Source of the DNA: an uncultured Bacteriovoracaceae bacterium
Lineage (GTDB): Bacteria > Bdellovibrionota > Bacteriovoracia > Bacteriovoracales > Bacteriovoracaceae
Length of the DNA stretch: 33,866 nt
Reading direction: 5' to 3'
Assembly (NCBI GenBank): GCA_913053615.1
Contig: CAJXHA010000006.1
Span: 1-33,866, forward strand
Made by a program: the position numbers and the translations under genes. Under the pieces are notes generated by a model. The model worked only from the letters and a program-made list of their open reading frames with translations. It was not told where the DNA came from and did not search any database. The first letter of the stretch is position 1, and each line of letters begins with the position of its first letter. This document shows positions 9,897 through 27,925 of the stretch, one piece after another.

Positions 9897-9976
9897 TAAA
9901 ATCCTTTTTTATATAATAACACTAAAATAGGAATAATGAGCTAAGTTGTTATTATTCGGTGTGTTGAAACCCCAAA

Positions 9977-10004
9977 ATGCACGATAATGTTTCTTAATGA
10001 TTTA
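9977..10004 (+). repeat. Left Xer/dif-like attachment site (attL)
   Basis: ATGCACGATAA-TGTTTC-TTAATGATTTA; left arm and 6-bp centre identical to the dif site at 27898, right arm divergent. Confidence 0.8.
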
Positions 10005-10091
10005 TTCGATAATGCATAATATAGGACGCCATTTCGGCGATTGCCAATTTATCTTTGCTGTCAAACTTGTAAACGATTGAGGGAAAATTGA

Positions 10092-10131
10092 GCAAAAAAA
10101 AAGGGCTAGATACGGTAAGTGTCTAGCCCTT
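10092..10131 (-). terminator. Leftward rho-independent terminator
   Basis: Minus strand reads AAGGGCTAGA-loop-TCTAGCCCTT followed by T tract (plus-strand A tract 10094-10102). Confidence 0.65.
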
Positions 10132-10139
10132 TGACAAAA

Positions 10140-10206
10140 ATTCCACTGGAAAGACCAGAGAATCTTAGAATCACGAACTTTGAATCTCGCATTTTTCCAG
10201 TGGAAT
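10140..10206. promoter_or_regulatory. 13-bp perfect inverted repeat upstream of rep
   Basis: ATTCCACTGGAAA (10140-10152) and TTTCCAGTGGAAT (10194-10206), 41-bp spacer; each arm contains palindrome TTCCAnTGGAA. Confidence 0.6.
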
Positions 10207-10293
10207 ATCAAGTCATTTTGCTTATTTTTTATGGTTTTTCCATGGAAAGTCCAACGGCTTTTCTAGGGTTTTCCAGAAAATCAAGGGGGATGA

Positions 10294-11130
10294 GTGAGTG
10301 ACGCAGGTTTTCAGAATGATGTTAGAAATCAATCTCTAGGTTCATGGACAGCATTTCCAAACGACTTAATTAAATTATTGCAGTACAAAAAAATCACGCA
10401 TATTGAATTTTGCACTTTGCATTACATTTTTTGCACGTTGTATCGAAAGAATAAATACTCCGGAAATTTCTCACTTCGCCACTTGGAAGAAAAGGTAAGT
10501 GTAAATCGAAAGACTGTTATTAAATCAATTCGTAAGTTTGAGTCCCTAGGATTCATTTTCCGACACTTTGACCATAGTTTCTATGGCGAAACATACACTT
10601 TAAGCCTAAAGCATCTAGGGCTAATTTTGGACGAATTAGAGGGTGGTGTATCCAGTACACCACTTTCGGAACGAAATACACCACTTTCGGAACGAAATAC
10701 ACCACTTTCGGAATCAAATACACCACTTTCGGAACGAAATACACCAAACAATAGATTTATATATAATAATATATATTCTCTCTATAATAAGAAATTATTG
10801 GCAGGGTGCGAAAGTTTGGAAGTTGAATTCCAACGTCTAATCGACGTCGGGTTCTCTGTCGAGAACTTAATGTCATTTTTAGAGCTTCACTCTAAAAATG
10901 GTTACTTTGACTTTGAATCAATTCAGAGTTTTTACGCAGTCGTTACCAAGTACGGAAAAAAGAATCTCGAACAAATTGAAAAGGCTATGACGGCGAAACG
11001 ACTTCGCCGTATAGATGAAAATAAGAAAGTCCAAGCCCATATCGAAAATATCAGAAATGGCAAAGTCAAATCAAATACAAAGATCATTAAACGTAGTGAC
11101 GGAAAACCGTCATTCAAACTTAACACATAA
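10294..11130 (+). CDS. E1 replication initiator-like winged-helix protein
   Basis: N-terminal HTH (FSLRHLEEKVSVNRKTVIKSIRKFESLGFI); C-terminal block shared with E2 Rep (F(D/N)..xxQSxYAxxxxxGK); GTG start after AAGGGGG. Confidence 0.7.
   Translation: MSDAGFQNDVRNQSLGSWTAFPNDLIKLLQYKKITHIEFCTLHYIFCTLYRKNKYSGNFSLRHLEEKVSVNRKTVIKSIRKFESLGFIFRHFDHSFYGETYTLSLKHLGLILDELEGGVSSTPLSERNTPLSERNTPLSESNTPLSERNTPNNRFIYNNIYSLYNKKLLAGCESLEVEFQRLIDVGFSVENLMSFLELHSKNGYFDFESIQSFYAVVTKYGKKNLEQIEKAMTAKRLRRIDENKKVQAHIENIRNGKVKSNTKIIKRSDGKPSFKLNT
10657..10746 (+). repeat. Four 21-bp direct repeats (iterons) inside rep, plus partial fifth
   Basis: acaccactttcggaacgaaat at 10657, 10678, 10699 (variant), 10720, partial at 10741; each has palindromic core TTCGGAACGAA. 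Confidence 0.9.
10747..10800 (+). other. AT-rich stretch adjacent to iterons (candidate DNA unwinding element)
   Basis: aacaatagatttatatataataatatatattctctctataataagaaattattg directly after the iterons. Confidence 0.6.
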
Positions 11131-11143
11131 AAAGGGAGATTTT

Positions 11144-11473
11144 ATGAGCTTAGAATCACGAAAGAAAAGCCTTAATTCACAACTTGCACGACAAAAACTA
11201 AAGCAAGAACAAGCATTAAGGTCAATTGAGAGAATCGAAAGTCAATTAAGAGAGATTCAATTAATTGAAGAAAACAGAGAACTGGAAAGTTTGTCAGACA
11301 TGACTAGAAAAAAGGTAACGAAAAAGAAATTCCAAAAACCTGAAATAGTTGAGGAAGTTCAGAGTGAAAAAGAAGAATCGGAAAAGGGCGGCTTAGAAAA
11401 AAAAGAGTCGAGAAGTGGGGTTATATCTAAAGTCGGAAGTTATCTTTTTGAAGAAAGCGAGGATGAATTATGA
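11144..11473 (+). CDS. Coiled-coil hypothetical protein
   Basis: ATG at 11144 after AAAGGGAGAT; charged helical MSLESRKKSLNSQLARQKLKQEQALRSIERIESQLREIQ; positional equivalent of 19966-20232. Confidence 0.7.
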   Translation: MSLESRKKSLNSQLARQKLKQEQALRSIERIESQLREIQLIEENRELESLSDMTRKKVTKKKFQKPEIVEEVQSEKEESEKGGLEKKESRSGVISKVGSYLFEESEDEL

Positions 11474-12018
11474 TTTTCAAATTTGAAAATAAAATAGAAA
11501 AAGCGAAGTTTAATTATGTAATGGCAATCATGCATATTAATGAATTAGTGAGGTCAAAAGAATTTTGGAAAAATATTCCAAACGATAAAAAATTTACTTA
11601 CACACTTCACTCAACTGATAGATTAAAAAATCTAATGTCTAGCTATATGAGAAATGCAGAGATTGAGATTACTTTTTATAGATCAAGTTGGTTTTTTAGG
11701 GGCGTTGTTTCAAATGTAAAAAATAATAAACCAAATACAATTAATATTAATACTAGGCATAGAAATTTTACTCGCACAAGTGGTGAGTCTATAATTATGG
11801 ACATAGCAGATAAGATAAATACTATTTGTCATGAATGTGTTCACATCGCAGATAATTTAAATGGAAATATGAGTTTTGGTCATGGTGATAATAATCCGGT
11901 AGGGAAAGAAGACTCCTTTCCATACTGGTTTGGAAATTATGCCAGAGATTATTTTATTTATTATTACAACGATAGTGTTCAAGAAGAAATGCTTAAAAGG
12001 ATAAATTATGTTCAATAA
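11470..12018 (+). CDS. HExxH metallopeptidase-like protein
   Basis: INTICHECVHIADNLNG (HExxH); positional equivalent in E2 has HEQCHNLGFEHD. Confidence 0.6.
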   Translation: MIFKFENKIEKAKFNYVMAIMHINELVRSKEFWKNIPNDKKFTYTLHSTDRLKNLMSSYMRNAEIEITFYRSSWFFRGVVSNVKNNKPNTININTRHRNFTRTSGESIIMDIADKINTICHECVHIADNLNGNMSFGHGDNNPVGKEDSFPYWFGNYARDYFIYYYNDSVQEEMLKRINYVQ

Positions 12019-12481
12019 TAATGAGGAAAAGACTTCAAATAAACACTTGAGAGATATCGAAAAAGATTTACTAAAAGAAACTGCTCAAACCATTAACGAG
12101 CAAAATGCAAACAACAATAATCAAGGTGGTAATAGTGAGAATATTAACTCGGATACGAAAATCAATTATTCGGTTCAAATACCTAAAATTTTCCCAAGAA
12201 CTATCTTGGGTCTTAGCAATTATGCTATCTACGAAAAGCGGATACAGCTATTACCTAAAGACAATCAGGACAAAGCTAGAGAAGTTATAAAACCAACTGA
12301 TAAGCAAATTGACTTGCTTGGTGAGTTGTTAACTTTTTTTAGTGATAGATACGGCGTGAGCGTTGTTGAATCGCCTTGGTTTGGCCCATGTTTATTGGCC
12401 GGAGAAATTGCAAAGATTGAGTTTGTAAAGTTTCAAGCTTTTAAGCACATCGAGGAAATTTCAAAGGATGGTGACAAATGA
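12008..12481 (+). CDS. Hypothetical phage protein
   Basis: Intact ORF overlapping neighbours; low-complexity N-terminus, helical C-terminus; same position as 20757-21278. Confidence 0.6.
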   Translation: MFNNNEEKTSNKHLRDIEKDLLKETAQTINEQNANNNNQGGNSENINSDTKINYSVQIPKIFPRTILGLSNYAIYEKRIQLLPKDNQDKAREVIKPTDKQIDLLGELLTFFSDRYGVSVVESPWFGPCLLAGEIAKIEFVKFQAFKHIEEISKDGDK

Positions 12482-12648
12482 AAGTTTTAAAAACACAACT
12501 AAAAAGAATTTTTGTTAAAAAGATTGTTAATGCTTCGAGAGTTGAAGTTTCGACTGAGCTAAAAAAATTGAGAGAAGCAAAAGGAATAACAGTTACTACA
12601 AAAAATGAACTTTTAGAAATTGCAATCAGACAAATAAAGGGGGCGTAA
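12478..12648 (+). CDS. Small ribbon-helix-helix-like protein (56 aa), E1-specific
   Basis: MKVLKTQLKRIFVKKIVNASRVEVSTELKKLREAKGITVTTKNELLEIAIRQIKGA; overlaps both neighbours; below ORF-track size cutoff. Confidence 0.55.
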   Translation: MKVLKTQLKRIFVKKIVNASRVEVSTELKKLREAKGITVTTKNELLEIAIRQIKGA

Positions 12649-13313
12649 TGGCGGTTCATACAGTCTATGGAATGACTCAATCAGGTAAGTCTTACTTTGT
12701 AAAAAAACAAATGATGCCTAATCAAGAGAGAACAATCGTGTACGACGTTGCACGTTGTTTTGATGGTGGTGATTATATTACTTTGAAAAATCAAAATGAT
12801 GTTTTGAAGGTTTTTAGAAAATACTCTAAGAAAAAAAGATATAAAATTATTCTTAGACCAGATAGAAACGACGATTATGTTTTTACTTGTGATCTTTTAA
12901 TTTCTTTGGCGTGTGCTTTAGGAAGGGCTTGCAGTCCAGAATATAACGCAGATAAAAGAGTATGGTTAGTTATAGATGAAGCTGATCAAGTTTGTTCTAG
13001 TCATTATCAGTCAAAACAATTAAAGCATCTAGTAAATAAGGGACGTCATGATAATGTTGATTCAATTTTTATTGCAAGAATTCCCCAAAGGCTTCATACG
13101 GATATCAGGGCTAATACTAGTCGAATAGTTTCATTCAAAATATCTAATTCTACAATTAAGGATTTTGTAGATAATTTTGGTAGAGATTACGCAAAATCAA
13201 TTCAAGAACTCGGAAAGTATGAACGCTTAGAGTGGGACGATACGGGAACTATTACAGTCTATAGTTCTGACAATAGAATTTTAAAAACGGGGAGTAAGCG
13301 TGATAAAAATTAA
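12648..13313 (+). CDS. FtsK/HerA-type (A32/P9-like) packaging ATPase candidate
   Basis: Walker A GMTQSGKS at N-terminus; Walker B VWLVIDEAD; ~220 aa. Confidence 0.72.
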   Translation: MAVHTVYGMTQSGKSYFVKKQMMPNQERTIVYDVARCFDGGDYITLKNQNDVLKVFRKYSKKKRYKIILRPDRNDDYVFTCDLLISLACALGRACSPEYNADKRVWLVIDEADQVCSSHYQSKQLKHLVNKGRHDNVDSIFIARIPQRLHTDIRANTSRIVSFKISNSTIKDFVDNFGRDYAKSIQELGKYERLEWDDTGTITVYSSDNRILKTGSKRDKN

Positions 13314-13512
13314 AGGTTTTAAAAATTATATGTTTTGCCCAAAAAAAATTAAAGTTTTTTCCATTAGGGAAAATAAATTGCATGAAATAAAACCAATAAG
13401 AAATCGTGGCGGAGTTGTTAAATATGCACTTTATAAAAATGGAATTAAAAACATAATTTCGCTTTTTGATGTTCTTAAAATTATTCTTGAGACAAAGGAA
13501 AGTATTAAATAG
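13300..13512 (+). CDS. Small conserved phage protein
   Basis: YALYKNGIKNIISLFDVLK aligns with YTLYKNGVPFNVSLFDLLK of 21940-22146. Confidence 0.65.
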   Translation: MIKIKGFKNYMFCPKKIKVFSIRENKLHEIKPIRNRGGVVKYALYKNGIKNIISLFDVLKIILETKESIK

Positions 13513-13538
13513 TTACAAAATTGAGATTTACAAAGCAT

Positions 13539-13567
13539 AAGCCCTTAGAATTAAGGGCTTTTTTTTT
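13539..13567 (+). terminator. Rho-independent terminator ending early module
   Basis: AAGCCCTTAGAATTAAGGGCTT followed by T tract. Confidence 0.85.
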
Positions 13568-13729
13568 GTGTTTTGCGTACAAATTTGCACCAACTTTGAA
13601 ATATAAAAAAGTCTCTTTGAAAAATAAACTTTTAGTGTGTGTTGTATTTCTCACTAGGGTTCAATTCTCTGTCTTAGCCGGTCTTAAAAAGCCGGCGTCC
13701 TTTTGAGAGCAAAAAAAAAGGTAAAAATT

Positions 13730-13834
13730 ATGAAAGGTTTATTTTCAAAAAGAAATCTAATTCAAACTGCGATGACTATTGGGGTTATCATTTTGATTAG
13801 AAAGAGTCCATTAGCAAAGTATATTCAAGTTTAA
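13730..13834 (+). CDS. 34-aa transmembrane miniprotein upstream of MCP
   Basis: MKGLFSKRNLIQTAMTIGVIILIRKSPLAKYIQV; same position, size and architecture in E2. Confidence 0.7.
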   Translation: MKGLFSKRNLIQTAMTIGVIILIRKSPLAKYIQV

Positions 13835-13847
13835 TAAGGGGGATAAT

Positions 13848-14936
13848 GTGGAAAATCAAAAACAGCCAGCAAATATTGTCCTCTCTCAAAGATCAAGAAA
13901 GTTACCGTCTAAAAAATATTCGGCGGGTGATACTTTAGAGTTTGATATTCCTTCGGGAGAAGTTATTAAAGAAATCGTTGTTTCTATGCATGGAAAAGTT
14001 ACTCCAAGTTATTCGGCGGGTAATTTCGTATTTCATAAGTACGGTGTTATGGATGCGTTAGTAAGAGCGTTGAATGTGAATGACGGTTCTAAAGTTTTAA
14101 AAGGCTTTCAAGGCGTTGACGTTTTAAGAAGACAAGCACGTTATTTAAGTGGTTCTGCGTGTCCTACATTTTATAAAAAGAATAGCTCAACTTTAGGTAC
14201 AAGCCCAAGTGTTGGTTTTGTAGATGAAGCTGGTGCGTTCGGTGCGAATTCAGGTAATGATATTGCATTTAGTGAAACTGTAAGTATCCCTTTTGAAAAT
14301 AAGTTATCTAACCAATGGTCTAGAACGCTTTTAAATACTAAGGGTAAAAATAATGTAAAAGTTGAAATGGTTCTTAATGAATTATCAAAATTAGTTGATG
14401 CTAGTGATGGTACGACTGTAGTTACTGGTGTGACTTCTGATATTACGATTGAAGTTCAATTAATTACTATTCCAGCTAAAAGAGAAATGCCAGTATTTGA
14501 AAACTGGAGACAAAGTCACCAAACTTTTAATATTTTTGGTCAGCAATCTGAACAACCTTATAAACTTACTAAAGGTGCAAGGGTACAAGGTTTTTGGATA
14601 ACTGCTTATATGGGTTCGGCAAATAGAAGACTTTCTCTTGACGAAGCTAAAGAGCTAGTAATTGAAGTGCGTTTAAATGGTACTGAATTAGTTAAAAAGT
14701 TTTCTCTTTATAATTTAATGATGGAAAATTTATCGAAGTCTCAAATTTCGGAAGTTCAAGACGGTTCGGCGTATTGTAATTTTCTTGATAACTCGATGTT
14801 TGAAACAGCTTTAAATACTTCAAATCAAGCGGGTGTGCTTGAGTATGATGCAATCATCACGACACCTTCTTCATGGAGTTATAGTAGTCCAGTTCAATTA
14901 ACTTTTGAACAGGATGATATCGAACTTAAAAATTAA
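13848..14936 (+). CDS. Candidate major capsid protein (proposed double jelly-roll)
   Basis: Homologous to 22530-23588 (GEVIKEI..., FYKKNSSTLG, NFLDN..F.TALNT...GV); beta-rich; insulated by terminators; GTG start after AAGGGGG. Confidence 0.65.
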   Translation: MENQKQPANIVLSQRSRKLPSKKYSAGDTLEFDIPSGEVIKEIVVSMHGKVTPSYSAGNFVFHKYGVMDALVRALNVNDGSKVLKGFQGVDVLRRQARYLSGSACPTFYKKNSSTLGTSPSVGFVDEAGAFGANSGNDIAFSETVSIPFENKLSNQWSRTLLNTKGKNNVKVEMVLNELSKLVDASDGTTVVTGVTSDITIEVQLITIPAKREMPVFENWRQSHQTFNIFGQQSEQPYKLTKGARVQGFWITAYMGSANRRLSLDEAKELVIEVRLNGTELVKKFSLYNLMMENLSKSQISEVQDGSAYCNFLDNSMFETALNTSNQAGVLEYDAIITTPSSWSYSSPVQLTFEQDDIELKN

Positions 14937-14976
14937 TAACCTCGTTTCATGGTGACATGAACTTAATTGAGTGTTG

Positions 14977-15018
14977 AGGGCTTGTGAGAGTTAATATTAA
15001 CAATCACAGGCCTTTTTT
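14977..15018 (+). terminator. Terminator after MCP gene
   Basis: GGCTTGTGA ... TCACAGGCC followed by T7. Confidence 0.75.
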
Positions 15019-15035
15019 TATTGGAGTTAAACTTA

Positions 15036-15674
15036 ATGGGTTTATTTGATGATTTAAAAAAGAAAGCTGAGGAAACTTTTAACGAAGCTAAGAAAAGCGT
15101 TAATAATGTTGTTCGTGAAGTTGGAAAAGGTACTCAGAAAATTGGCTCAATTCCTTTAAATGCAGTTAAGGAAGTTGAGAGAAGTTATAATAGAAATCAG
15201 GCGGGAATAAATGCGACTGCGGGGCTAGCGGCTAGGGGTGCGGCGGCTTATTTTACAGGCGGTGCAAGTGAGGCGTTGGGTGCTGGTGATTTACTTACTA
15301 AGCAGTTTGGCGGTGCTGAAGATACGGCGGCACTTGGCGATCTAGTTGGATTAGCGTCAGGCGGTCAAACGGCTTTAGCGGCTAAATTGTTCCAAGCTAG
15401 TCAGGCACAACCACAAAATTATGTAATGGATTCACAGGGGGGATATGTGGAAGGTAATTGGTATGATGATTTTTTAGACATAGGGAAAGATTATGTGAGG
15501 CAACAGGCATTAGGGGGTGGAAAGGATAGAAAAGTTTCTTTGCCAAGTGCTACGCCACAACCGGCAGTAATAACTGTACCAGCACCACAGCAAGAAGACA
15601 ATACGACAAAGTATATTATTGCAGGTGTCGCTGGTCTTGCTTTAGTTGGTATTGCTTTTGCGTATAAGAGGTAA
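15036..15674 (+). CDS. Putative virion membrane protein (Gly/Ala-rich, C-terminal TM)
   Basis: INATAGLAARGAAAYFTGGASE...LTKQFGG matches E2; C-terminal YIIAGVAGLALVGIAFAYKR; ATG at 15036. Confidence 0.7.
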   Translation: MGLFDDLKKKAEETFNEAKKSVNNVVREVGKGTQKIGSIPLNAVKEVERSYNRNQAGINATAGLAARGAAAYFTGGASEALGAGDLLTKQFGGAEDTAALGDLVGLASGGQTALAAKLFQASQAQPQNYVMDSQGGYVEGNWYDDFLDIGKDYVRQQALGGGKDRKVSLPSATPQPAVITVPAPQQEDNTTKYIIAGVAGLALVGIAFAYKR

Positions 15675-15678
15675 CTAA

Positions 15679-16350
15679 ATGGAAAAATATAGAGAACAAC
15701 AAAAATATTTAAATGATTCTCTAAGGGAAAATACATTAGGGAAAGAAAAGGTTTTCACTCGTAAGAGATTTAAGCTTGATCAAAAACTAACCATTAATGA
15801 TGAGTATACAAAAAATGTTTTTAGGCAACCATTTAGAGGTTTTTGGGTTGTGGCTTCAAGCGATAAAGACTTTGAAGCAAAAATGCTTCCAAATATTAAT
15901 AATCAAAATGGTGACTTGTTAGACTTAAGGTATAACTTAACATTAGATATGGGCGAGTATGTAGACGGTTGTAAACTTGAGTTTGAAGCCCAAGCAGGGA
16001 AGTGGATAGAAATATTATTTTTTCATAAGGGCTTTGCTCAACTTGGTTTAACTGAGCTTGATAATTTAAAACTTGCTAAAGAAACTCTAAGAGTTCCAAG
16101 TATTGAAGCAATTACTACTTCTAAAGTTGAGATTGCTACAATCAGTGAAGAAAATTCAAGAGTTACTATTATTAATGTTGGTAGCAATATTGTTTATATT
16201 GGTAATGAAACTGTAATAGATGATGCAGATTATTTAAATCTATGTGACGTTATTCCTAGTGGTGAAGAGTTTGTTTATGAGGGTTCAAAAGAGATTTTCT
16301 CAAAAACTTTTATGGGTTCTACTTCAATTAAAGTTATAAAGGAAAAATAA
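15679..16350 (+). CDS. Putative minor virion protein, beta-rich
   Basis: FRQPFRGFWVVASSDKDFEA and VYIGNETVIDDADY align with E2 24799-25506. Confidence 0.6.
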   Translation: MEKYREQQKYLNDSLRENTLGKEKVFTRKRFKLDQKLTINDEYTKNVFRQPFRGFWVVASSDKDFEAKMLPNINNQNGDLLDLRYNLTLDMGEYVDGCKLEFEAQAGKWIEILFFHKGFAQLGLTELDNLKLAKETLRVPSIEAITTSKVEIATISEENSRVTIINVGSNIVYIGNETVIDDADYLNLCDVIPSGEEFVYEGSKEIFSKTFMGSTSIKVIKEK

Positions 16351-16352
16351 TA

Positions 16353-17012
16353 ATGAAAAATTATATTAACGCAGAAAACTTAAATAATGTTTTAGATACA
16401 GGTACTCTCTATGAAACTGCTGAGTTTATAAAGTCAAATAGTTTTTTAAATATTGGTGAGGCTTATAATTTAACAGGTACGCCAAGGCCAATGATTTTAA
16501 ACGAAGCTGATTTTGAAAATGGAAACATACTTGGTGACAATTTTTTTAATCGAGTACTTCTTGGCTTTGTTCCTTCTTTTGATGACCAAGGCTTTAGCAT
16601 GGTTCAATTTTTTGACTTAGATGCTGATTTAGGTGCAGGGGAAAAAGGCCATATAAGAAAAGTATTTTTGCCTAAGAAATTTAAAGTGACTTTTAGTGGA
16701 AATATCCAAGGTGATACTGAGGTATCAGAGTCATGTGCAGTGGTCGCAACAACTGTTACAAGAGAAAATGCCGGAAGTTTTACGGTTCAGACTGAAAAAC
16801 CTTTTGCCAAATACAATCTTGATTTTTCGGCTAGTGGAATAAGTACTGGTGTTAAGGAATTTTCTCATACATGGGAATTTGACTTAAATAATGTTGTTGA
16901 TACGGCGAATATAATTGAGTTTGGAATAGCAACTAATATTCCAACCGTTGCCAATTTTTCAAATAACACAGTCGAATTAAAAAATATAAAATGCACTATT
17001 GTTGGGATTTAG
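16353..17012 (+). CDS. Putative beta-rich structural/spike protein
   Basis: Syntenic with 25507-26052; beta-rich composition. Confidence 0.5.
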   Translation: MKNYINAENLNNVLDTGTLYETAEFIKSNSFLNIGEAYNLTGTPRPMILNEADFENGNILGDNFFNRVLLGFVPSFDDQGFSMVQFFDLDADLGAGEKGHIRKVFLPKKFKVTFSGNIQGDTEVSESCAVVATTVTRENAGSFTVQTEKPFAKYNLDFSASGISTGVKEFSHTWEFDLNNVVDTANIIEFGIATNIPTVANFSNNTVELKNIKCTIVGI

Positions 17013-17013
17013 T

Positions 17014-17457
17014 ATGTACGAAAAAGCGAATCGTTATTTAAAATTTTATTATGACAATGCAAAAAGTAAACTTCCCTTTTCAAGTTATGACGAGTTTGTT
17101 CAGCATTACAGAGTTGATAAATTTTTACTTGAAAATTATGGTGAAAAAGTTGTTCATGATGATTTTTTAAAATTCTTTGATAAGGCTTTGGAGTATTCAT
17201 CAGATAATGATGCAAAACAAGCTATGTTATCGCTTGCTAAAAATACTCAAAATGGAAAGACACCAAGTTCACAAAGTTTCTATGATTCTCTAAGTGGTCA
17301 AGTTGAAAGCTTTAGTTTTGAAGATGGCTTAGAAGTTATTAAGGAAACTGGAAAGGACTTGGGGAAAGTTGCTGTCGCTGGTGCTGGTTTGTTTCTTTTA
17401 AAAGTCGGTGCGACTGCATTGGTTGGATACTACTTAAAGAAATACTTAGATAAATGA
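17014..17457 (+). CDS. Putative virion membrane protein with C-terminal TM
   Basis: KLPFSSYDEFVQHYR...HDDFLKFFDKAL...GKTPSSQSFYDSLSGQVESFSF matches 26052-26498. Confidence 0.7.
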   Translation: MYEKANRYLKFYYDNAKSKLPFSSYDEFVQHYRVDKFLLENYGEKVVHDDFLKFFDKALEYSSDNDAKQAMLSLAKNTQNGKTPSSQSFYDSLSGQVESFSFEDGLEVIKETGKDLGKVAVAGAGLFLLKVGATALVGYYLKKYLDK

Positions 17458-17948
17458 AATATTTAATTTTTGGAATTATTTTAATGACTGTTATTGGTAA
17501 GAAAATTTATGACGTATCAAATGCCATTAATGATGAATTTGATCTTTATTTTCAGAGATCCGGTGAGAGAAATAATATAGATCCAAACTTAATAAAAGCT
17601 CTTGGCCTTAATGAATCATGGCTAGGAAAATATAAAAATGAAGTTGTAGTTAATGGCGAGGCGACAAGCGGTATAATGCATTTAGAATTACCCACTGCGA
17701 GAGACTACGTTTCCAATATTAGTCGTGATGATCTTTTAAAACCAGAAAATGAAATTGAAATAGCAACCAAGCACTTTAAGTGGTTACTTGGACAAACTAA
17801 TAATAATCTTGACCATGCAGTTAGGGCTTATAATGGCGGAATTGGTAGATTAAGGGAATATCTAAGGGGCGAAGCACCGGATATATGGGTTAAAAATACA
17901 AATGAGTACTTAGAGCGTTTTAAAAGGAATTTAGAGCGTTTGAGTTAA
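17454..17948 (+). CDS. Membrane-anchored lytic transglycosylase (SLT-like)
   Basis: NIDPNLIKALGLNESWLG ... TSGIMHLELPTARDY ... VRAYNGGIGRLREY; N-terminal TM. Confidence 0.85.
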   Translation: MKYLIFGIILMTVIGKKIYDVSNAINDEFDLYFQRSGERNNIDPNLIKALGLNESWLGKYKNEVVVNGEATSGIMHLELPTARDYVSNISRDDLLKPENEIEIATKHFKWLLGQTNNNLDHAVRAYNGGIGRLREYLRGEAPDIWVKNTNEYLERFKRNLERLS

Positions 17949-18046
17949 AACATATAATTATGTGTGGACTAGTCTCTAAAAAAGCTTCCTGAGCTAAATA
18001 TGAGGCTAGTTTTTTCTTTATAAACTTTAAAACCGAGGGGTTAAGA

Positions 18047-18235
18047 ATGGAATGGATTATTGAAAAGATTTTAAGTCGAGTATCTTTAAAAAAACTTGCT
18101 AAATCAGCTTATGCAGTTATTAGAAAAAAGCTTCAAAAAATGGTTGATGCCACTGATACAACTTTTGATAATGAAGCTTTAGAAGTTGTTGACGCTGTCG
18201 TTGATGCATTAATTGGCGAAATCAAAGAAGCATAA
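18047..18235 (+). CDS. Small hypothetical phage protein
   Basis: 62 aa, RBS GAGGGG; roughly syntenic with small ORFs 26986-27383. Confidence 0.5.
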   Translation: MEWIIEKILSRVSLKKLAKSAYAVIRKKLQKMVDATDTTFDNEALEVVDAVVDALIGEIKEA

Positions 18236-18501
18236 TGAATTTTGCACCTGTAGATTTATTCAGCATTTTAATGCAGTTTATATCTGTAGGTGCATTACTT
18301 AAAATTTCTTTTAATACTGGAAAGGTGAGCGAGCGACTTTCCTCAATGGAAGGTGTTAAGAGAGATCACGAAATCAGATTAAGAGAAGTTGAAGACCTTG
18401 AGATCAGACTCGTAACAGTCGAAAAAAATAAAGCTGATATCGCCAGTATTGCTAAGATTGAAGCAAGAGTCCAGTTAATTGAAAAAGGCCTTAATTTCTA
18501 G
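18235..18501 (+). CDS. Holin-like protein, one TM plus coiled coil
   Basis: N-terminal hydrophobic segment, ISFNTGKVSERL..., coiled-coil; matches 27370-27528 (ISHNTGKMAQKV). Confidence 0.55.
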   Translation: MNFAPVDLFSILMQFISVGALLKISFNTGKVSERLSSMEGVKRDHEIRLREVEDLEIRLVTVEKNKADIASIAKIEARVQLIEKGLNF

Positions 18502-18502
18502 C

Positions 18503-18730
18503 CTATTCTTTACATTTAAAATAAGTAACATCATTGGCACTTCCAAAGTCTATTTCAGTTTCAGTCGATAAAATCTTATAACCATTTGGGCAAGTTTTTT
18601 CTATTTTTTCTTCACATGAAAATGAAAGCTTATTACACTTTGCTTTGTAAGTATCATTCCCAATATTTTTAATACTTGAGCAAGAAGTCAATATAAATGA
18701 AATGGCTAGTATCCAGTATTTTGATTGCAT
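18503..18730 (-). CDS. Cys-rich lipoprotein
   Basis: Lipobox LTSC; NDTYKAKCNKLSFSCEEKIEKTCPNGYKIL homologous to 27590-27826. Confidence 0.75.
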   Translation of the reverse strand: MQSKYWILAISFILTSCSSIKNIGNDTYKAKCNKLSFSCEEKIEKTCPNGYKILSTETEIDFGSANDVTYFKCKE

Positions 18731-18947
18731 TTTTACACCTCACATTAATTGTTTGATTATTCATCGGCGAATAATTGGAAAGTCTTGATTTTTGGAGTAA
18801 TATTAGCTTGAAAACTTAATGGATTCTAAAAAAATTGACTTTTTTTATGGAAAATCCTATGGTTTTTTTACAAGTTTGCAGTAAAGGTTTGTCAAAACAC
18901 TTTACAATGTACTAAAGATTAATGAAGAAACTGTCGATAAAATGTAA

Positions 18948-18975
18948 ATGCACGATAATGTTTCTTATGCTGTAT
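18948..18975 (+). repeat. Central Xer/dif-like attachment site between E1 and E2
   Basis: ATGCACGATAA-TGTTTC-TTATGCTGTAT. Confidence 0.8.
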
Positions 18976-19005
18976 AGAATAAGTCAGGTATTATAAAAAA
19001 GATTT

Positions 19006-19032
19006 CCTCTTCAAAAAGAAGAGGTTTTTTTT
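19006..19032 (+). terminator. Hairpin + T-tract immediately 5' of E2 rep (attenuator/SD-sequestering candidate)
   Basis: CCTCTTC-AAAAA-GAAGAGG followed by T8; AAGAGG lies 6 nt before the TTG start. Confidence 0.7.
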
Positions 19033-19909
19033 GTTACAAAACGGTGAGAAAAGTAAAGAAAGTCTTAATTTTTTAGAAGATTATAGTCAATTCAACAAAA
19101 GAAATTCTGGTTTTATTCAGGTTAATACTTCAATTTTTTATTTACATCAATCCAAAGTCATTGATGACAAAGAGCTTATATTTTTATGTCGAGTTCTTGG
19201 TGATTGCAATGCCAGAAATACTAATGTTGTTAGAATTTCTCATAGCAGAGTGATGAAGTTTGCATCATGCGGAAAAGAAAAAGCAAACAAGATAATTAAA
19301 CGCATGGTTAATAAGCTAAAATTTCTAACTCTCGTCAGTTTAAATAAAAGATCAGGGTATTTGTATAGGTTAGATTTGGAAGCGTTAGAGACCGCTTTAA
19401 AGCTAAATTACAACTTGTTCGTTGAGCGAAGTAGTGAAAGTTCGATTAACGAAGTAGTGAACTACGACAATCGAACAGGTGATGTACGTCTATCGGGGAG
19501 CGAGAAGTTCGAGAGCCGAACACAAAGATATATAAATGATTTAATTAAAGACTACTATTCTTATATAAGATATTTGACGCCACAGGCTAAAACGCATATG
19601 GCGTCTGAGTTTTGGAGATTGGAGAATAAAGGTTTTGATCGCAAAGCGATCAAGTTTTTTATTGAATTTAACAAAGTAAATTTAGAAAAAGTTCAAAGTA
19701 TCTATGCACTAATAGCAAGTCATGGAAAAGAATACTTTGAAAGCTTAGAGCTTATAAAGCAAAGCTTTGAAGTAAAAAAGCCAGAAAGTGTCAATCAGTC
19801 ACACTTAGTAGCAGAAAGTGTCACAAAAGAACAAAAACCACTAACAGAAGAAGAAATGAAGGAAGTTGAAGAAGCTAAAAAGTTTTTAGCTGAGTTTATA
19901 AAGTCTTAA
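19031..19909 (+). CDS. E2 replication initiator-like winged-helix protein
   Basis: HTH-like VVRISHSRVMKFASCGKEKANKIIKRMVNKL; C-terminal VNLEKVQSIYALIASHGKEYFESLELIKQ matches E1 Rep; TTG start. Confidence 0.65.
   Translation: MLQNGEKSKESLNFLEDYSQFNKRNSGFIQVNTSIFYLHQSKVIDDKELIFLCRVLGDCNARNTNVVRISHSRVMKFASCGKEKANKIIKRMVNKLKFLTLVSLNKRSGYLYRLDLEALETALKLNYNLFVERSSESSINEVVNYDNRTGDVRLSGSEKFESRTQRYINDLIKDYYSYIRYLTPQAKTHMASEFWRLENKGFDRKAIKFFIEFNKVNLEKVQSIYALIASHGKEYFESLELIKQSFEVKKPESVNQSHLVAESVTKEQKPLTEEEMKEVEEAKKFLAEFIKS
19418..19520 (+). repeat. Five phased palindromic iterons inside E2 rep
   Basis: TTCGTTGAGCGAA (19418), TTCGATTAACGAA (19441), TACGACAATCGAA (19463), TACGTCTATCGGG (19485), TTCGAGAGCCGAA (19508); 22-23 bp spacing. 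Confidence 0.78.
19521..19575 (+). other. AT-rich stretch after E2 iterons (candidate unwinding element)
   Basis: cacaaagatatataaatgatttaattaaagactactattcttatataagatattt. Confidence 0.55.
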
Positions 19910-19965
19910 ATGATGCTCGCACGATGCGAGCAATAAAATGCTTTTAGCAAAAGGAGTTTTAAAAA

Positions 19966-20232
19966 ATGGAAAATGATTCTTACTACCAAAAAGTTGAGAG
20001 AAGACTTGAGCGAAACAAAAAAGTTCTTGCTCAAAAACAAAGAGCCGTACTTCGTGACGAAGAAATTTTAGACGGTTTAAAAAGCGGAAACGCAAATTAT
20101 GTGCCTAAGACAAAAAAAGGAGAAAAAAAGGAAGTTAAGTCACAAAAAGTTACAAAAAATGAAACTAAAGAAGAAATTAAACCAGAAAAGACACAAGCAA
20201 AAAGTGTCTTAGATGAAATTTTTGAGGAGTAA
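19966..20232 (+). CDS. Small charged coiled-coil protein
   Basis: MENDSYYQKVERRLERNKKVLAQKQRAVLRDEE; equivalent of 11144-11473. Confidence 0.65.
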   Translation: MENDSYYQKVERRLERNKKVLAQKQRAVLRDEEILDGLKSGNANYVPKTKKGEKKEVKSQKVTKNETKEEIKPEKTQAKSVLDEIFEE

Positions 20233-20760
20233 GTGATGCTAAGTAACAAAAAAACACAAGTTAAAGTTATTAAAAAGGGAATAAAGTATATTTGTGAAAG
20301 TGAGAAAATTGATAGAGCAAGGGAAAAGCTCGAAGTAATAATAAATTCAGATACCTTTAAAGAAAAAGTTAGAAACTATATTTCTTATGGAAAAAAACAA
20401 TTCATTCAAAACAATGGTTTTAGCAATGAAGAAGTTTTACAAAGACTTTTAGAGGGTTCCGAAATTCTTAATAAAAGAATTGATTACCTATGGGAAGTTC
20501 ATTTAACAATTATAAAAAGACCTTGGTATAAAAGGTTTTCAAGTGTCAACGGTTTTACCTATCCAAACACTCTTGAAATTAAAATTTATAGAGATTCTTT
20601 TAATTCTATGAGTGATGCATTTTTGGCTGCTTTTATGGCCCATGAGCAATGCCACAACTTAGGTTTTGAACATGACTTTAGAAGAACTGCAAGAAGACCT
20701 TTTAGCGTTCCATATGCAGTTGGTGGCATCATTTCAAAACTAATAAGAGAGGTATATTGA
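20233..20760 (+). CDS. HExxHxxGxxHD metallopeptidase-like protein
   Basis: FMAHEQCHNLGFEHDFRRTA: metzincin-like zinc motif. Confidence 0.7.
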   Translation: MMLSNKKTQVKVIKKGIKYICESEKIDRAREKLEVIINSDTFKEKVRNYISYGKKQFIQNNGFSNEEVLQRLLEGSEILNKRIDYLWEVHLTIIKRPWYKRFSSVNGFTYPNTLEIKIYRDSFNSMSDAFLAAFMAHEQCHNLGFEHDFRRTARRPFSVPYAVGGIISKLIREVY

Positions 20761-21278
20761 TGTTTCAGAAAAGTAAAATTAATAAATCAAGGTTAAAGGA
20801 TACAATCAGTGCATTTCGTATTGATTATTCTCAAATAATGGGGGCAAGTAATGCTAAAAGACTTTCGGGAGAAACTCAACAAAATGCTTTTTCTAGTGAG
20901 ACTCAAGAAAAAGTGCATATTCCTTGGATTGAGGATTTACTACCAAAAAATATTGCTAAAATTGTTGGTGAAGCGCCCGAGTCGGTTGCTCTTTTCCTTG
21001 CAAGCAAAGAACTCACTGAGGATGAAAAAAAATCAATTGCAGGTTTCTTCAATGTTGATGAAGAAACTGCTAAAAGACGTCTAACTATTTTAGAGAAATT
21101 AATCAATACATACTTTCCAAATATTGGTGATTTGGCATCTAAAATAAAAGATGATCCTCACTTTCAACTTCTCATGGAGATGATTTCTCCGTTCCAAGCT
21201 TATCATTTGGCAAAGAGACATATTGCAGAACAAAGAAGAATTAAAAATTATTCAAAAAGCAAGGGGGTAGATGTATGA
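20760..21278 (+). CDS. Hypothetical phage protein
   Basis: Same position as 12008-12481. Confidence 0.6.
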   Translation: MFQKSKINKSRLKDTISAFRIDYSQIMGASNAKRLSGETQQNAFSSETQEKVHIPWIEDLLPKNIAKIVGEAPESVALFLASKELTEDEKKSIAGFFNVDEETAKRRLTILEKLINTYFPNIGDLASKIKDDPHFQLLMEMISPFQAYHLAKRHIAEQRRIKNYSKSKGVDV

Positions 21279-21943
21279 GCGTATTATGCTATTTTGGAAA
21301 AACTGGAAGTGGTAAATCACATAAAGCAAAAGAAAAAATCAAAGAATATAAAAAAAGAATTATATTCGATATCACACCATCAAAGTCATTTAGGTTTGGA
21401 AAAGAAAAAGATGGTGGCATAGAATGCAAAAATGGAATTGAGCATAACAATTATTCTTTGAGGTCACTTGAGGAGCTTTTAGTTGAACTAATTGAAAAAG
21501 ATGAATTTACACTTATTTTTAGACCATCAACCGAGATAGATTGGTTTGCAATAGGTGAGGCGGTTTGTTCTTTTGCTATGAGGTTAGGCGATTATTACGA
21601 TAAAGACTTTAATGAAAATATTGTTTTAGTTTTAGATGAGCTTGATAAGTATGTTTCAACAACTAAACAATCATTTATTGCTAGGGCAATTGGCATGGGA
21701 AGGCATTCTCATTTAGACTTGTTTTGCATTTCACAAGTTCCAAGTCAATTACCAAAAGTTATTAGAGATAATGCAAGTGTTGAACATTTTTTTCAACTTG
21801 GTCTTAATGACTATTATCAAAAAAAATTAGGTGATGAAATTTCTAATAAGCTTGCAAGTGGTGACTTACCAGAATATTCATATTACCTAAAAGTTGATGG
21901 TGACAATCCAAAACTTTATAACAAAAATGGAAAATTACTATGA
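21275..21943 (+). CDS. FtsK/HerA-type packaging ATPase candidate
   Basis: Walker A GKTGSGKS; Walker B NIVLVLDELD. Confidence 0.75.
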   Translation: MSVLCYFGKTGSGKSHKAKEKIKEYKKRIIFDITPSKSFRFGKEKDGGIECKNGIEHNNYSLRSLEELLVELIEKDEFTLIFRPSTEIDWFAIGEAVCSFAMRLGDYYDKDFNENIVLVLDELDKYVSTTKQSFIARAIGMGRHSHLDLFCISQVPSQLPKVIRDNASVEHFFQLGLNDYYQKKLGDEISNKLASGDLPEYSYYLKVDGDNPKLYNKNGKLL

Positions 21944-22146
21944 TTGAATTAATTGGCCATGAGGGCTATTTTTTAGACATTCAATCGTTTAGAATTTTTT
22001 CAAGTCATTCAAAAGGTTATATAAAACCAAAGTACGATGGTAGAAAAAAAGTTTTTACTCTTTATAAAAATGGAGTTCCTTTTAATGTGTCTTTGTTCGA
22101 TCTTTTAAAAACTAATCTTAAAAATATATCAAAAAAATTGTCTTAA
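21940..22146 (+). CDS. Small conserved phage protein
   Basis: YTLYKNGVPFNVSLFDLLK shared with 13300-13512. Confidence 0.65.
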   Translation: MIELIGHEGYFLDIQSFRIFSSHSKGYIKPKYDGRKKVFTLYKNGVPFNVSLFDLLKTNLKNISKKLS

Positions 22147-22177
22147 AGTTGGAATTAACTAAGTATTGACACCGCTT

Positions 22178-22205
22178 AAAGCCCCTAACAAAGGGGCTTT
22201 TTTTT
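22178..22205 (+). terminator. Rho-independent terminator ending early module
   Basis: AAAGCCCCT-AACA-AAGGGGCTTT followed by T tract. Confidence 0.88.
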
Positions 22206-22313
22206 ATTTCTACAATGTAACAACTTTGGAATGAGGTTGTTATTTTTCTCCATTGACTTTTCTGTGAAAATTAAAACCTGATAATTATTTTTTTGCAAAC
22301 AAAGGAAGTAGAA

Positions 22314-22424
22314 ATGGCAAAATTCAAAAGATACGCAATTATGGCAATCGCTGGTGTAGTAGGCGTGGCAATCGCTTTTAGAACTCCTGTTTTAAAAGAT
22401 TACATTGTTCCAATGCAAAAATAA
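22314..22424 (+). CDS. 36-aa transmembrane miniprotein upstream of MCP
   Basis: MAKFKRYAIMAIAGVVGVAIAFRTPVLKDYIVPMQK; RBS AAGGAAG. Confidence 0.7.
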   Translation: MAKFKRYAIMAIAGVVGVAIAFRTPVLKDYIVPMQK

Positions 22425-22529
22425 GCCATTTAAGCCTTTGGGTTTTTATAAATGGTTTAGCAAGGGATTGTTCTTTAAAACGCTTTAAAAGCAAAATATG
22501 AAGTTTAATTTTTAAAAAAGGATTGAAAA

Positions 22530-23588
22530 ATGGCTACTAACTCACAGCAGTCTAGGGAAGTAGAACAGTTTAAGTATCAAAAAGCTGAGTCTAAAGTTAT
22601 TCGCTTACCACAAGGCGAAGTTATTAAAGAAATTCACATCATGGCAAAAGGTAAGTTCGCTCATACTTATGCCTCTGGTTCTCCAACTTTAAAAAAGCAT
22701 GGCGTACTAGATGCTCTTTGTAGAGGAATTAGATGCGTTGAAGATGGGAATAAAATTGTTAAATCATACAAGGGCGTAAAAGTTCTTCGTAATTTATCAG
22801 AATGGATTCAAGGAAGTGGTCTTGCATCATACTTCAAGAAAAACTCTTCTACACTTGGAGCTTTTAGTTCAGTGACTAAAGGTTTTCCAGACATTGGAAG
22901 TACTACAGAAGAAACTTCTTTTCTTGATACTGTAATTATTCCTTTTGATGGGAAGCTATCTACAGAGTATGCACGAACTAGATGGAACTTGAGAGATAAA
23001 ACAGATGCTTATATTCAAATTGATTTTAACGAGCTTGCTGACTTACTTGAAATTGGTTCCGATGCAGCAACGGTAAGTGCTGATATTGATTTTTATGTAT
23101 CAATCGTAACTTCTCCAGCTCTAAGTGATGTTGCTTTTGCAAAGTGGAAGCAAACTTTTAAAGAAGAGGAGCTTTCAGGGCCAGCAGTTGAAAAAAGAAT
23201 AGATTTAATTTCGGGTGGTTTACAGCAAGGTTTTTGGTTATCACTAGAGAAAGGTTCTACTAGAGAGCCACTAACACTAGAAGAGTGTTTAGAAACAAAA
23301 GTAAAAGTTATCCTAGATCAAGCAGGTCAAGGGCAATCAATTCTAAAGAGTACTAATCTTTTAGAGTTAATGGCAATTAACGAGAATAAGACAATGATTG
23401 AAGACTTTATTCCTTCAGCGGCTTATGTAAACTTTTTGGATAACAAAACTTTTGGAACTGCTCTTAATACAGGTGTTGGAAGTGGAGTTCAAAAACTTGA
23501 TTTAGTTTTAACAACTCCAGCGGGAATAAGTTATTCACCAAACCCTCTTATCGTAAGAGTTGAACACGATACGATAGAGGCACAATAA
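22530..23588 (+). CDS. Candidate major capsid protein (proposed double jelly-roll)
   Basis: Homolog of 13848-14936; KKHGVLDALCRG, YFKKNSSTLG, VNFLDNKTFGTALNTG. Confidence 0.65.
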   Translation: MATNSQQSREVEQFKYQKAESKVIRLPQGEVIKEIHIMAKGKFAHTYASGSPTLKKHGVLDALCRGIRCVEDGNKIVKSYKGVKVLRNLSEWIQGSGLASYFKKNSSTLGAFSSVTKGFPDIGSTTEETSFLDTVIIPFDGKLSTEYARTRWNLRDKTDAYIQIDFNELADLLEIGSDAATVSADIDFYVSIVTSPALSDVAFAKWKQTFKEEELSGPAVEKRIDLISGGLQQGFWLSLEKGSTREPLTLEECLETKVKVILDQAGQGQSILKSTNLLELMAINENKTMIEDFIPSAAYVNFLDNKTFGTALNTGVGSGVQKLDLVLTTPAGISYSPNPLIVRVEHDTIEAQ

Positions 23589-23607
23589 ACCTCTTTTTGA
23601 ATAAGTA

Positions 23608-23634
23608 AAAGGGGAGCTTTAAGTTCCCCTTTTT
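23608..23634 (+). terminator. Terminator after MCP gene
   Basis: AAGGGGAgctttaagTTCCCCTT followed by T run. Confidence 0.8.
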
Positions 23635-23653
23635 AACAAAAGGTTAAAGAATA

Positions 23654-23986
23654 GTGGAATTATATAAGGAATATACCAAATATAGGCATAATGCCATTTT
23701 AGAATATGATGAAAAATATTTTATCGAGTATATCTTATTTTCCGAAGTTCTTTTTATAAAAAACTTTTACGTTAGACCAGAATATAGACTTAAATTTTCT
23801 GTAAGAGATTTTTTTAACAACTTTAAAAAAGAAAAAGCAAAAGATGTTAAAGAAATTCAAGTTCAAGTTGATTTAAACTCTCGTGGAAGTTCACGAGCAT
23901 TGAGTTGTTTTTTAAAGTGCGGTCTAAAGCCTTTTAAAGCTCAAGATGACGTAATATCTCTCGTGTGTGAGGTAAGTAATGGGTGA
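23654..23986 (+). CDS. GNAT acetyltransferase-like small protein, E2-specific
   Basis: IKNFYVRPEYRLKFSVRDFFNNFKKEK...IQVQVDLNSRGSSRALSCFLKCGLKPF resembles GNAT motifs A/B. Confidence 0.5.
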   Translation: MELYKEYTKYRHNAILEYDEKYFIEYILFSEVLFIKNFYVRPEYRLKFSVRDFFNNFKKEKAKDVKEIQVQVDLNSRGSSRALSCFLKCGLKPFKAQDDVISLVCEVSNG

Positions 23987-24785
23987 TGTAGTAAAGAAAG
24001 CCGAAAAGGCCGTTAAATCAGTAAAAAAAGCTACTGGTATTGATAAAGTGGAAAAAGCCGTAAAGAAAACGGTTAAAAGTGTTCCAGTTGTTGGTGATGT
24101 TTATAAAGAAAGCGAAAAAGCAATTAGCAATGTTAGAAAAGAAGCTGATCGAGTTTGGGAAAAGAATAAAGATGGTGTAAATGCAACGGCAGGTTTAATT
24201 GGTAGAGGTGCCGCTGCTTACTATACGTTAGGAGCTAGTGAGCTAGTTGGTGGTGGTAACTATTTAACTAAGCAATTTGGTGGCTCTAAAAAAACTTCTC
24301 AATACGGACAATTGGCAGGAACTATTGGCGGTGCTTATGGTGCTGCAAATGCACTAGGTTCTCTAGCAGGTCAAGGTGTTATAAGTCAGTCGGCTGCAAA
24401 TGTAGGTGGCACGGCTGCAACTTCAATCATATCTCAAAGAGCGTCAGGCAATGCAGTGGATGCAGGTCGTACGATTGCAAGTGTAGGTGGAGCCGCAATT
24501 GATGAGAGCGTAAAGTCTAATATAGGGAGTAATGGAATGAATGAATCAAATTTTTGGGAAGACCAATGGAATCAATATGGCGGTCAAGTTGTAGATTCTG
24601 TTTTGGGTAATTTATTAGGAAGTAGCAAAGGTGGCGAACAACCTAAACCAATATCATCTGGTCAACAACCTATTGTTGTTCAAACTCCAGGGGGAAGCAA
24701 TAACGGTGGTGATAATGAAAAGATGATGATGATGCTCGCAGGTGGCTTAGGTCTTGTGACATTATTAGTATTATTAAGAAAATAA
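23979..24785 (+). CDS. Putative virion membrane protein (Gly/Ala-rich, C-terminal TM)
   Basis: VNATAGLIGRGAAAYYTLGASE...LTKQFGG; C-terminal MLAGGLGLVTLLVLLRK. Confidence 0.7.
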   Translation: MGDVVKKAEKAVKSVKKATGIDKVEKAVKKTVKSVPVVGDVYKESEKAISNVRKEADRVWEKNKDGVNATAGLIGRGAAAYYTLGASELVGGGNYLTKQFGGSKKTSQYGQLAGTIGGAYGAANALGSLAGQGVISQSAANVGGTAATSIISQRASGNAVDAGRTIASVGGAAIDESVKSNIGSNGMNESNFWEDQWNQYGGQVVDSVLGNLLGSSKGGEQPKPISSGQQPIVVQTPGGSNNGGDNEKMMMMLAGGLGLVTLLVLLRK

Positions 24786-24798
24786 ATAAGGTGTCATT

Positions 24799-25506
24799 AT
24801 GGCAGATAGTAAAGAAGTTCTAAACCCACAATTGCAAAAACTTTTAAAGTTCTTGCAGGATGGGCAAACATATTCAAGAACAACAAGTACTAAGGCATTT
24901 ACAGTCGTTAGATTTCATCTTGATGAAAAAAGAACAAGAGCATCAAGAGAAGGTAATTTGTTCGATCAATCTTTTATGGGTGTTTGGGTAATTGGTTCTA
25001 ACAAGAAAAAATTCTCTGCTACACTTTTTGTAAATGATAACAATAATGCAAGTGATGGAATACCTTTAAGATCGAATATGACAATACCTTTTGAGATACC
25101 AATGGCAGGTGCCACATTAAGTTGGGAAGCTCAAGAGAATACTTATATAGATGTTTTATTTTCTCATCATTCAGCAATTAATGTTGGTTCTATTGAGCAA
25201 GAACTTAAGGGCGTTATTGTAAATAGTGATGGTTCGAGTTATGACCATGACCAAAACCCAGTGACTAAAACACCAACACAAATTTTTGACGTTGATAGTA
25301 ACAGGGGAGTTGGAACTATTTTTAATTATAGTTCTGAAATTTTATACCTTGGAAAAGAGAGTATTTTAAATGATGTTAACTATCAAAAAAAATCACTAAG
25401 GTGTTACCCTGACCAATCATTTGAATGGCGTAATTCGGATGAGCTTTACGTTAGAACGGCTTTAACAGACGCAGATGATGTAGTTGTTTTAAATGAGGGG
25501 GTATAA
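24799..25506 (+). CDS. Putative minor virion protein, beta-rich
   Basis: FDQSFMGVWVIGSNKKKFSA and LYLGKESILNDVNY align with 15679-16350. Confidence 0.6.
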   Translation: MADSKEVLNPQLQKLLKFLQDGQTYSRTTSTKAFTVVRFHLDEKRTRASREGNLFDQSFMGVWVIGSNKKKFSATLFVNDNNNASDGIPLRSNMTIPFEIPMAGATLSWEAQENTYIDVLFSHHSAINVGSIEQELKGVIVNSDGSSYDHDQNPVTKTPTQIFDVDSNRGVGTIFNYSSEILYLGKESILNDVNYQKKSLRCYPDQSFEWRNSDELYVRTALTDADDVVVLNEGV

Positions 25507-26052
25507 ATGAGAAGTAGTTACTTAGGAAGCAAAGAACATAAGCTTGTCGTTTATGGAAATAATTATGGTTATGGTGGTAGATATAACCCTGAGTCTATTG
25601 TTGATAAATCAATGGTATCAGAGTTTAAAAAATCAGATGTAATTGGTTATGATGCAAACTTCATGGACACCACAGAAATGAATGTTGTTTTAAATAATGC
25701 CTCTAAGATTTTAGTTGAGTTAAAGTTTAACAATTTTCAAATGGAGAAAGTCGGTGGCGATCCATTTTACAGCATAACACCAACCATTAAACTTTTTCAT
25801 GATCTTAATATTTCAAATACACTTAAGACTTTTTCAACTTCAAGTACTCAACTCGTAAGTTCAACAAAAACTTATAATGGCTCATGGAATGATGGCTCTA
25901 CTGCAAACTTGCATTATAAGCACGCATTCTTAGTAGATGTAAGTGCCTTGTCTGATGGTATTCATCAGTTTCAACTTAGGGTTGATACAACTAGCTTTGA
26001 TGTGAATATCACTGAATTTGAATATTCAATGATAATTAAAGAGGTTGCTTAA
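25507..26052 (+). CDS. Putative beta-rich structural/spike protein
   Basis: Syntenic with 16353-17012. Confidence 0.5.
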   Translation: MRSSYLGSKEHKLVVYGNNYGYGGRYNPESIVDKSMVSEFKKSDVIGYDANFMDTTEMNVVLNNASKILVELKFNNFQMEKVGGDPFYSITPTIKLFHDLNISNTLKTFSTSSTQLVSSTKTYNGSWNDGSTANLHYKHAFLVDVSALSDGIHQFQLRVDTTSFDVNITEFEYSMIIKEVA

Positions 26053-27897: not shown

Positions 27898-27925
27898 ATG
27901 CACGATAATGTTTCTTATCGTGCAT
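27898..27925 (+). promoter_or_regulatory. Intact dif-like XerC/XerD site (attR, probable chromosomal dif)
   Basis: ATGCACGATAA-TGTTTC-TTATCGTGCAT: perfect 11-bp inverted arms, 6-bp centre. Confidence 0.82.

Follow-up and report, generated by a model that had tools for sequence, protein, structure and literature searches.

A candidate lambda-type replication origin inside the initiator gene of tandem double-jelly-roll prophages in a Bacteriovoracaceae bacterium

The window, a stretch of 33,866 nucleotides from an uncultured Bacteriovoracaceae bacterium (contig CAJXHA010000006.1), contains two tandem elements of ∼9 kb each, E1 and E2, that share a common gene order (Table 1). Both encode, in this order, an initiator-like, a small coiled-coil-like, and a metallopeptidase-like protein, followed by a packaging ATPase of the A32/FtsK-like type, the major capsid protein (MCP), and, near the element end, a transglycosylase. 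The AF2 model of the E1 MCP is a double jelly roll (pLDDT 70), and Foldseek matched it to PRD1 P3 (E = 1e-15, TM 0.69), to the MCPs of STIV and PM2, and to that of phage Wip1 (TM 0.73). This modelled fold and the matches to PRD1 P3 and the Wip1 MCP lead us to classify E1 and E2 as double-jelly-roll prophages. No tail-gene family was recognised with confidence, and E1 looks like a small prophage of the tailless type. The packaging ATPase is conserved between E1 and its sister elements, and the lysis gene is swapped across them, being an SLT transglycosylase in E1, E2, and the related element of genome G040, and a glycosyl hydrolase 108 in that of genome G089.

Table 1. Positions of the features of E1 and E2 within the window.
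Feature	Position	Strand	Remark
E1 left junction repeat (AAATGCACGATAATGTTTCTTA)	9975..9996	+	
Two consecutive hairpins, candidate counter-transcribed small RNA	10090..10215	-	Second closes with nine consecutive T
E1 candidate replication initiator (278 aa; GTG start codon)	10294..11130	+	
Inverted repeat GTGGTGTA-TCCAG-TACACCAC	10643..10663	.	Iteron 1 begins with the right arm
Candidate iteron 1	10656..10676	+	Core TTTCGGAACGAAA at 10664-10676
Candidate iteron 2	10677..10697	+	
Candidate iteron 3	10698..10718	+	Core changed to TTTCGGAATCAAA, palindrome broken
Candidate iteron 4	10719..10739	+	Followed by partial fifth copy TACACCA, 10740-10746
AT-rich stretch, candidate unwinding element	10749..10799	.	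Least stable 50-bp window of E1
Small coiled-coil-like protein, 107 aa, directly 3′ of E1 initiator	11150..11473	+	ORF; place of lambdoid gene P
E1 packaging ATPase (A32/FtsK-like)	12648..13313	+	Pox_A32 1.3e-5, above gathering score; phrog_2666 4e-15
E1 major capsid protein	13848..14936	+	AF2 model and Foldseek
E1/E2 junction repeat	18946..18968	+	
E2 initiator candidate, 292 aa	19031..19909	+	21% identity to E1
E2 repeat region	19417..19522	+	GTTCG..CGAAG-type dyads at 19417, 19440, ∼19462; GTTCGAGAGCCGAAC at ∼19508-19522
E2 AT-rich stretch	19524..19574	.	Least stable 50-bp window of E2
E2 packaging ATPase	21275..21943	+	phrog_2666 5e-12
E2 major capsid protein	22530..23588	+	38% identity to E1 MCP
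Right junction, perfect dif-like palindrome ATGCACGATAA-TGTTTC-TTATCGTGCAT	27898..27925	.	Sole such match in the genome

Three copies of AAATGCACGATAATGTTTCTTA bound the two elements, at 9975, 18946, and 27896 (spacing 8971 and 8950). The downstream end of the array carries a perfect 11-6-11 dif-like palindrome both in the window (TGCACGATAA-TGTTTC-TTATCGTGCA) and in G089 (TGCACGATAA-GAAAGA-TTATCGTGCA), and the upstream junctions of both are partial copies of that site; the G089 junction repeats lie at L008 5308-5335 and 14261-14280. The exact dif-like site is absent from two genomes of the same genus, and no integrase family was found among the subset of ORFs scanned. As judged from the junction sequences, this suggests tandem integration by the host XerCD system. 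A second, inverted dif-like palindrome (GCACGGATAA-TTTTCG-TTATCGTGCG, 27833-27866), lies ∼60 bp short of the full site that terminates E2 and recalls some Xer-using phages, in which inverted att sites occur in pairs.

The product of the E1 initiator gene has, in a low-confidence AF2 model (pLDDT 49), a winged helix (residues ∼36-103), a disordered linker (∼117-152), and a helical C-terminal domain (∼153-254), and it matches HTH_36 (E = 4.6e-4) and phrog_270 (9e-4). Its Foldseek list serves as a hint only because of that pLDDT; low in the list are 4pql (‘N-Terminal domain of DNA binding protein’) and 4pt7 (‘Structure of initiator’), which we take to be the pSK41-type initiator. The small protein encoded directly downstream had no family match of note, and none that was P-like, in Pfam and PHROG scans; each sister element encodes a small protein of 82-113 aa at the same place after the initiator. 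DnaA boxes are absent from the vicinity of the candidate origin, and the window as a whole contains about as many of them as expected by chance.

Four 21-bp direct repeats (TACACCACTTTCGGAACGAAA) occupy positions 10656-10739 of the gene. The original prediction had proposed four such repeats with cores at 10665, 10686, 10707, and 10728, each bearing a palindromic core and encoding a TPLSERN peptide. Copies were indeed found from 10656, 10677, 10698, and 10719, and the core positions are exact; the dyad, TTTCG-GAA-CGAAA at 21-bp spacing, is intact in three of the four copies and broken in the third (TTCGGAATCAA), and the encoded peptide reads TPLSESN in that same copy. As predicted, the repeats separate the winged helix (36-103) from the C-terminal domain, since they encode residues ∼122-149, a stretch modelled as disordered in the low-confidence model. 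The hairpin described ahead of them is present as the inverted repeat with a TCCAG spacer (z = -4.2 when folded as RNA). The ∼50 bp that follow had been described as nearly pure A/T, which overstates a composition of 88-90% AT (88% at 10747-10796) that includes a CTCTC run; this stretch is nonetheless the least stable of the 8,922 50-bp windows of E1 (0.924 kcal/mol per bp vs a mean of 1.231).

None of 2000 synonymous-codon shuffles of the E1 gene attained its best 21-bp-period score (z = 11.6). The identity of the repeat copies could reflect recent tandem duplication, and because such a duplication would give the same score, the evidence that matters comes from relatives. A capsid profile search of 376 genomes of the phylum matched seven further genomes, one of them by a weak and short hit, and a search of genome contigs with the ATPases returned the G089 record alone. 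The nearest relatives are G089 (L008; JAIYDL010000018.1) and G040 (L009), whose initiators share 15-19% identity with that of E1. Among the genomes searched, none was close enough to share the iterons of E1 itself. Capsid and ATPase profiles detect a double-jelly-roll prophage family in genomes of one phylum, with members at window positions 9986-27907 and in L008, L009, and L019-L022.

The repeats of E1, E2, G089, and G040 differ in sequence yet start at one point of the gene, nt 363-390. The G089 array consists of four 15-bp palindromes (GTGCACCAGGTTCAC, GTGAACGACGTTCAC, GTGTACCACGTTCAC, and GTGAACGAGGTGCAC; consensus GTGMAC-NNN-GTKCAC in all four) with an exact 23-bp period, shifts frame from copy to copy, and encodes the non-repetitive peptide PGSLPVVNDVHPGWCTTFTRGSERGAH; that of G040 is weaker and degenerate, with a 22-bp period. 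Since neither 22 nor 23 is a multiple of three, the peptides of both are non-repetitive and it is the DNA, not the protein, that is repeated; the presence of DNA repeats without a peptide repeat in G089 argues for a function at the DNA level. In E1, E2, and G089, no 50-bp window of the entire element is less stable than the one directly 3′ of the array; in G040 the corresponding stretch is the second-lowest non-overlapping 30-bp window, with its 50-bp window in the lowest 1.6%. The original prediction had named as its refuting case relatives that keep the peptide and lose the DNA palindromes, and the opposite was seen: the dyad array and the weak-duplex stretch are kept, and the peptide is not. 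G040 has two additional copies of its dyad in the intergenic stretch 3′ of the initiator gene (L009 7666-7682 and 7702-7718).

We applied the same repeat test to the relatives and, as positive controls, to lambda O and phi80 gp15, which have annotated binding sites or iterons. The best-repeat window starts at nt 363 with a period of 21 in E1, at nt 364 with a period of 23 in G089, and at nt 367 with a period of 22 in G040, scores reached by 0, 0, and 31 of 2000 synonymous shuffles, respectively; the dyad-array score of G089 was likewise reached by 0 of 2000. Run with 60 shuffles per gene, the test gave an excess over shuffles of 8.0 sd in G089, 4.3 sd in E1, and 2.7 sd in G040; 40 other genes from these elements reached at most 2.7 sd, a single one of them coming near G040 and none near E1 or G089. 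In the controls, the window began at nt 364 with a period of 21 in phi80 gp15 and at nt 356 with a period of 23 in lambda O, and the weakest 50 bp within each gene started at nt 432 and nt 438, respectively. The anatomy of E1, G089, and G040 coincides with the lambdoid one within ∼10 nucleotides.

Taken by itself, the E2 array does not reach significance in the rigid repeat test (244 of 2000 shuffles reached its score) or in a k-mer test (82/500 at k = 6, with the best k = 5 word outside the array), and E2 counts mainly for the position of its array and for its weak-duplex stretch. A fixed 6-3-6 dyad test was not significant in E2 and G040 and is ill-suited to both (E2 has 5-5-5 dyads with uneven spacing).

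Upstream of the E1 initiator, the paired hairpins fold with z = -6.8 on the minus strand and -10.0 on the plus strand, and a pair in the same layout lies directly upstream of the initiator in G089 (L008 14085-14200) and G040 (L009 8440-8575; fold z ∼-7 each). In E1, G089, and G040, a T run follows the last hairpin on the strand opposite to that of the initiator, resembling a counter-transcribed small RNA of ∼110 nt with an intrinsic terminator. Rfam gave no match to the hairpin region. In phi80, the oop-like M3 RNA has the same place and orientation, just upstream, and lambda oop is comparable. Several TTTTCCA/TGGAAAA-type dyads are present at 10141-10280, in the interval that separates the hairpins from the start of the E1 initiator (e.g. 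10232-10253), and are possible repressor operators.

We consider it very likely that the E1 repeats and the adjoining AT-rich stretch are a replication origin lying inside its own initiator gene, of the intragenic iteron type found in lambda and phi80. The lambda-like reading of the original prediction is supported by the DNA architecture kept in relatives and by the lambda O and phi80 gp15 controls. The N-terminal winged-helix domain would bind the dyad core of each 21-bp iteron as a dimer, and the spacing of two helical turns would align these dimers along a single face of the double helix. A compact, O-some-like nucleoprotein complex may then strain and open the adjacent stretch at 10749-10799, where the host helicase would be loaded via the C-terminal domain, perhaps with the adjacent small coiled-coil protein, and theta replication would proceed from this origin. 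The repeat-encoded linker would act as a spacer, tolerating any peptide that the origin DNA encodes.

A coding minisatellite would explain the E1 array without any role for its DNA sequence, as slippage-born 21-bp repeats encoding a harmless, flexible TPLSERN linker, and this fits a repeat length divisible by three, nearly identical copies, and a stretch modelled as disordered. Sister elements, however, carry unrelated, frame-breaking 22- and 23-bp repeats at the same position, in which the dyads are kept and the peptide is not, and the weakest duplex of the element adjoins the array in three of four cases; we therefore regard a minisatellite as very improbable.

An operator or silencer array, serving autoregulation or as a phage repressor site while replication starts elsewhere, is also improbable, though slightly less so. 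Its placement mid-gene rather than at a promoter, the same in all members, and the weak-duplex stretch that is always next to it, as in lambda and phi80, argue against such a role, even though a dyad recognised by a winged-helix protein is a typical operator and G040 has two extra dyads past the gene. The two readings are not exclusive, because lambda-type iterons can have a regulatory side effect too. The least probable reading is some other cis site, for instance for packaging or partition, bound by a different protein: tandem dyads are known at centromere-like sites and Foldseek gave one weak match to a centromere-binding protein of a plasmid (4rs8), but the gene families found included no recognised pair of partition genes, and the array co-varies with the winged-helix gene that contains it.

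If the intragenic origin is real, a group of phages that has received little study gains a concrete origin. Across the four initiators the putative binding site would have changed wholly while its place and spacing stayed fixed, and this natural set would make the geometric rules of such origins testable. The different iterons of E1 and E2, side by side in one host, fit replication modules that diverge to avoid incompatibility.

Similarity to lambdoid O proteins is remote at the sequence level. An hhalign comparison aligned the four initiators, in their N-terminal domains, with those of lambda and phi80 O over 78 columns (probability 85, P = 6e-6, a remote match), and the ‘O-like’ family phrog_678 gave weak matches to E1 (1.9e-3) and G040 (1.2e-3). 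In a tblastn search of 50,697 phages with the G040 initiator, phi80-type O proteins were the only matches (E = 0.01); TIGR01610 phage_O_Nterm scored 0.067 for G040 and was absent for E1, E2, and G089. The full-length O family phrog_277 did not match E1 (lambda O at 1e-152 and phi80 at 3e-122 served as controls). Because phrog_277 is unmatched, the C-terminal domain is different, and no P gene is adjacent, we do not file the E1 initiator as a standard O protein, though by analogy it would work like the lambda O/ori module.

Further searches delimit how widely this initiator occurs. No homologue was found for the initiator, MCP, and ATPase in a viral-contig collection or for the initiator and MCP in annotated phages, and matches to the initiator in plasmids were weak, winged-helix matches only. 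A match in L003 was rejected as low-complexity, and matches of G010 and a second one of G089 to the E2 and G089 initiators were rejected as stop-ridden or palindrome artefacts. The initiator profile had no match in the more distant sister elements L019-L022, indicating that not all of these phages carry an origin of this kind. That result is in line with the swapping of replication genes in double-jelly-roll phages, described as frequent and as including DnaD-like winged-helix initiators in PMC9502842.

The E1 locus shares much with lambda O and phi80 gene 15, which likewise have four dyad iterons in the middle of the initiator gene, 20-23 bp apart and starting from nt 356-364, with a winged-helix N-terminal domain before them and an AT-rich stretch directly 3′. 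Origins inside initiator genes are textbook knowledge for lambda and for pSK41-type plasmids. The lambdoid cases differ in having a P/helicase-loader gene adjacent, of which there is none beside the E1 initiator, and in their C-terminal domain and iteron sequences; lambdoid phages are also tailed, whereas E1 is a double-jelly-roll phage of ∼9 kb. In lambdoid phages the iterons, each an imperfect inverted repeat, and an AT-rich tract lie mid-O (PMC7466680), and in the RepA_N plasmid pSK41 the origin has four Rep boxes central in rep that are bound by the winged-helix N-terminal domain, and the origin-encoded stretch links this domain to the C-terminal one and can be dispensed with for protein function (PMC5703833); both fit the mechanism proposed for E1. 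Unlike RepA_N plasmids, E1 is a phage, and its initiator lacks a match to PF06970, as do those of E2, G089, and G040 in Pfam scans at E ≤ 1.

In size, double-jelly-roll MCP, and packaging ATPase, the elements resemble Vinavirales and other double-jelly-roll prophages (PM2, NO16, and gut prophages), and for NO16 an XerCD/dif-type integration is proposed (PMC9966536). Neither iterons nor an intragenic origin are described in the searched passages of the double-jelly-roll phage papers (PMC9502842 and PMC9966536 included). The architecture itself is known, and what appears new, as judged from the papers searched, is its occurrence in double-jelly-roll prophages with divergent, co-located arrays. 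More tentatively, and with considerable doubt, small double-jelly-roll prophages and lambdoid tailed phages might share a homologous replication cassette across two realms, made up of an oop-like counter-transcribed RNA, an O-like winged-helix initiator, and an intragenic iteron and AT-rich origin, in which iteron and winged helix change together and so keep the co-resident E1 and E2 compatible.
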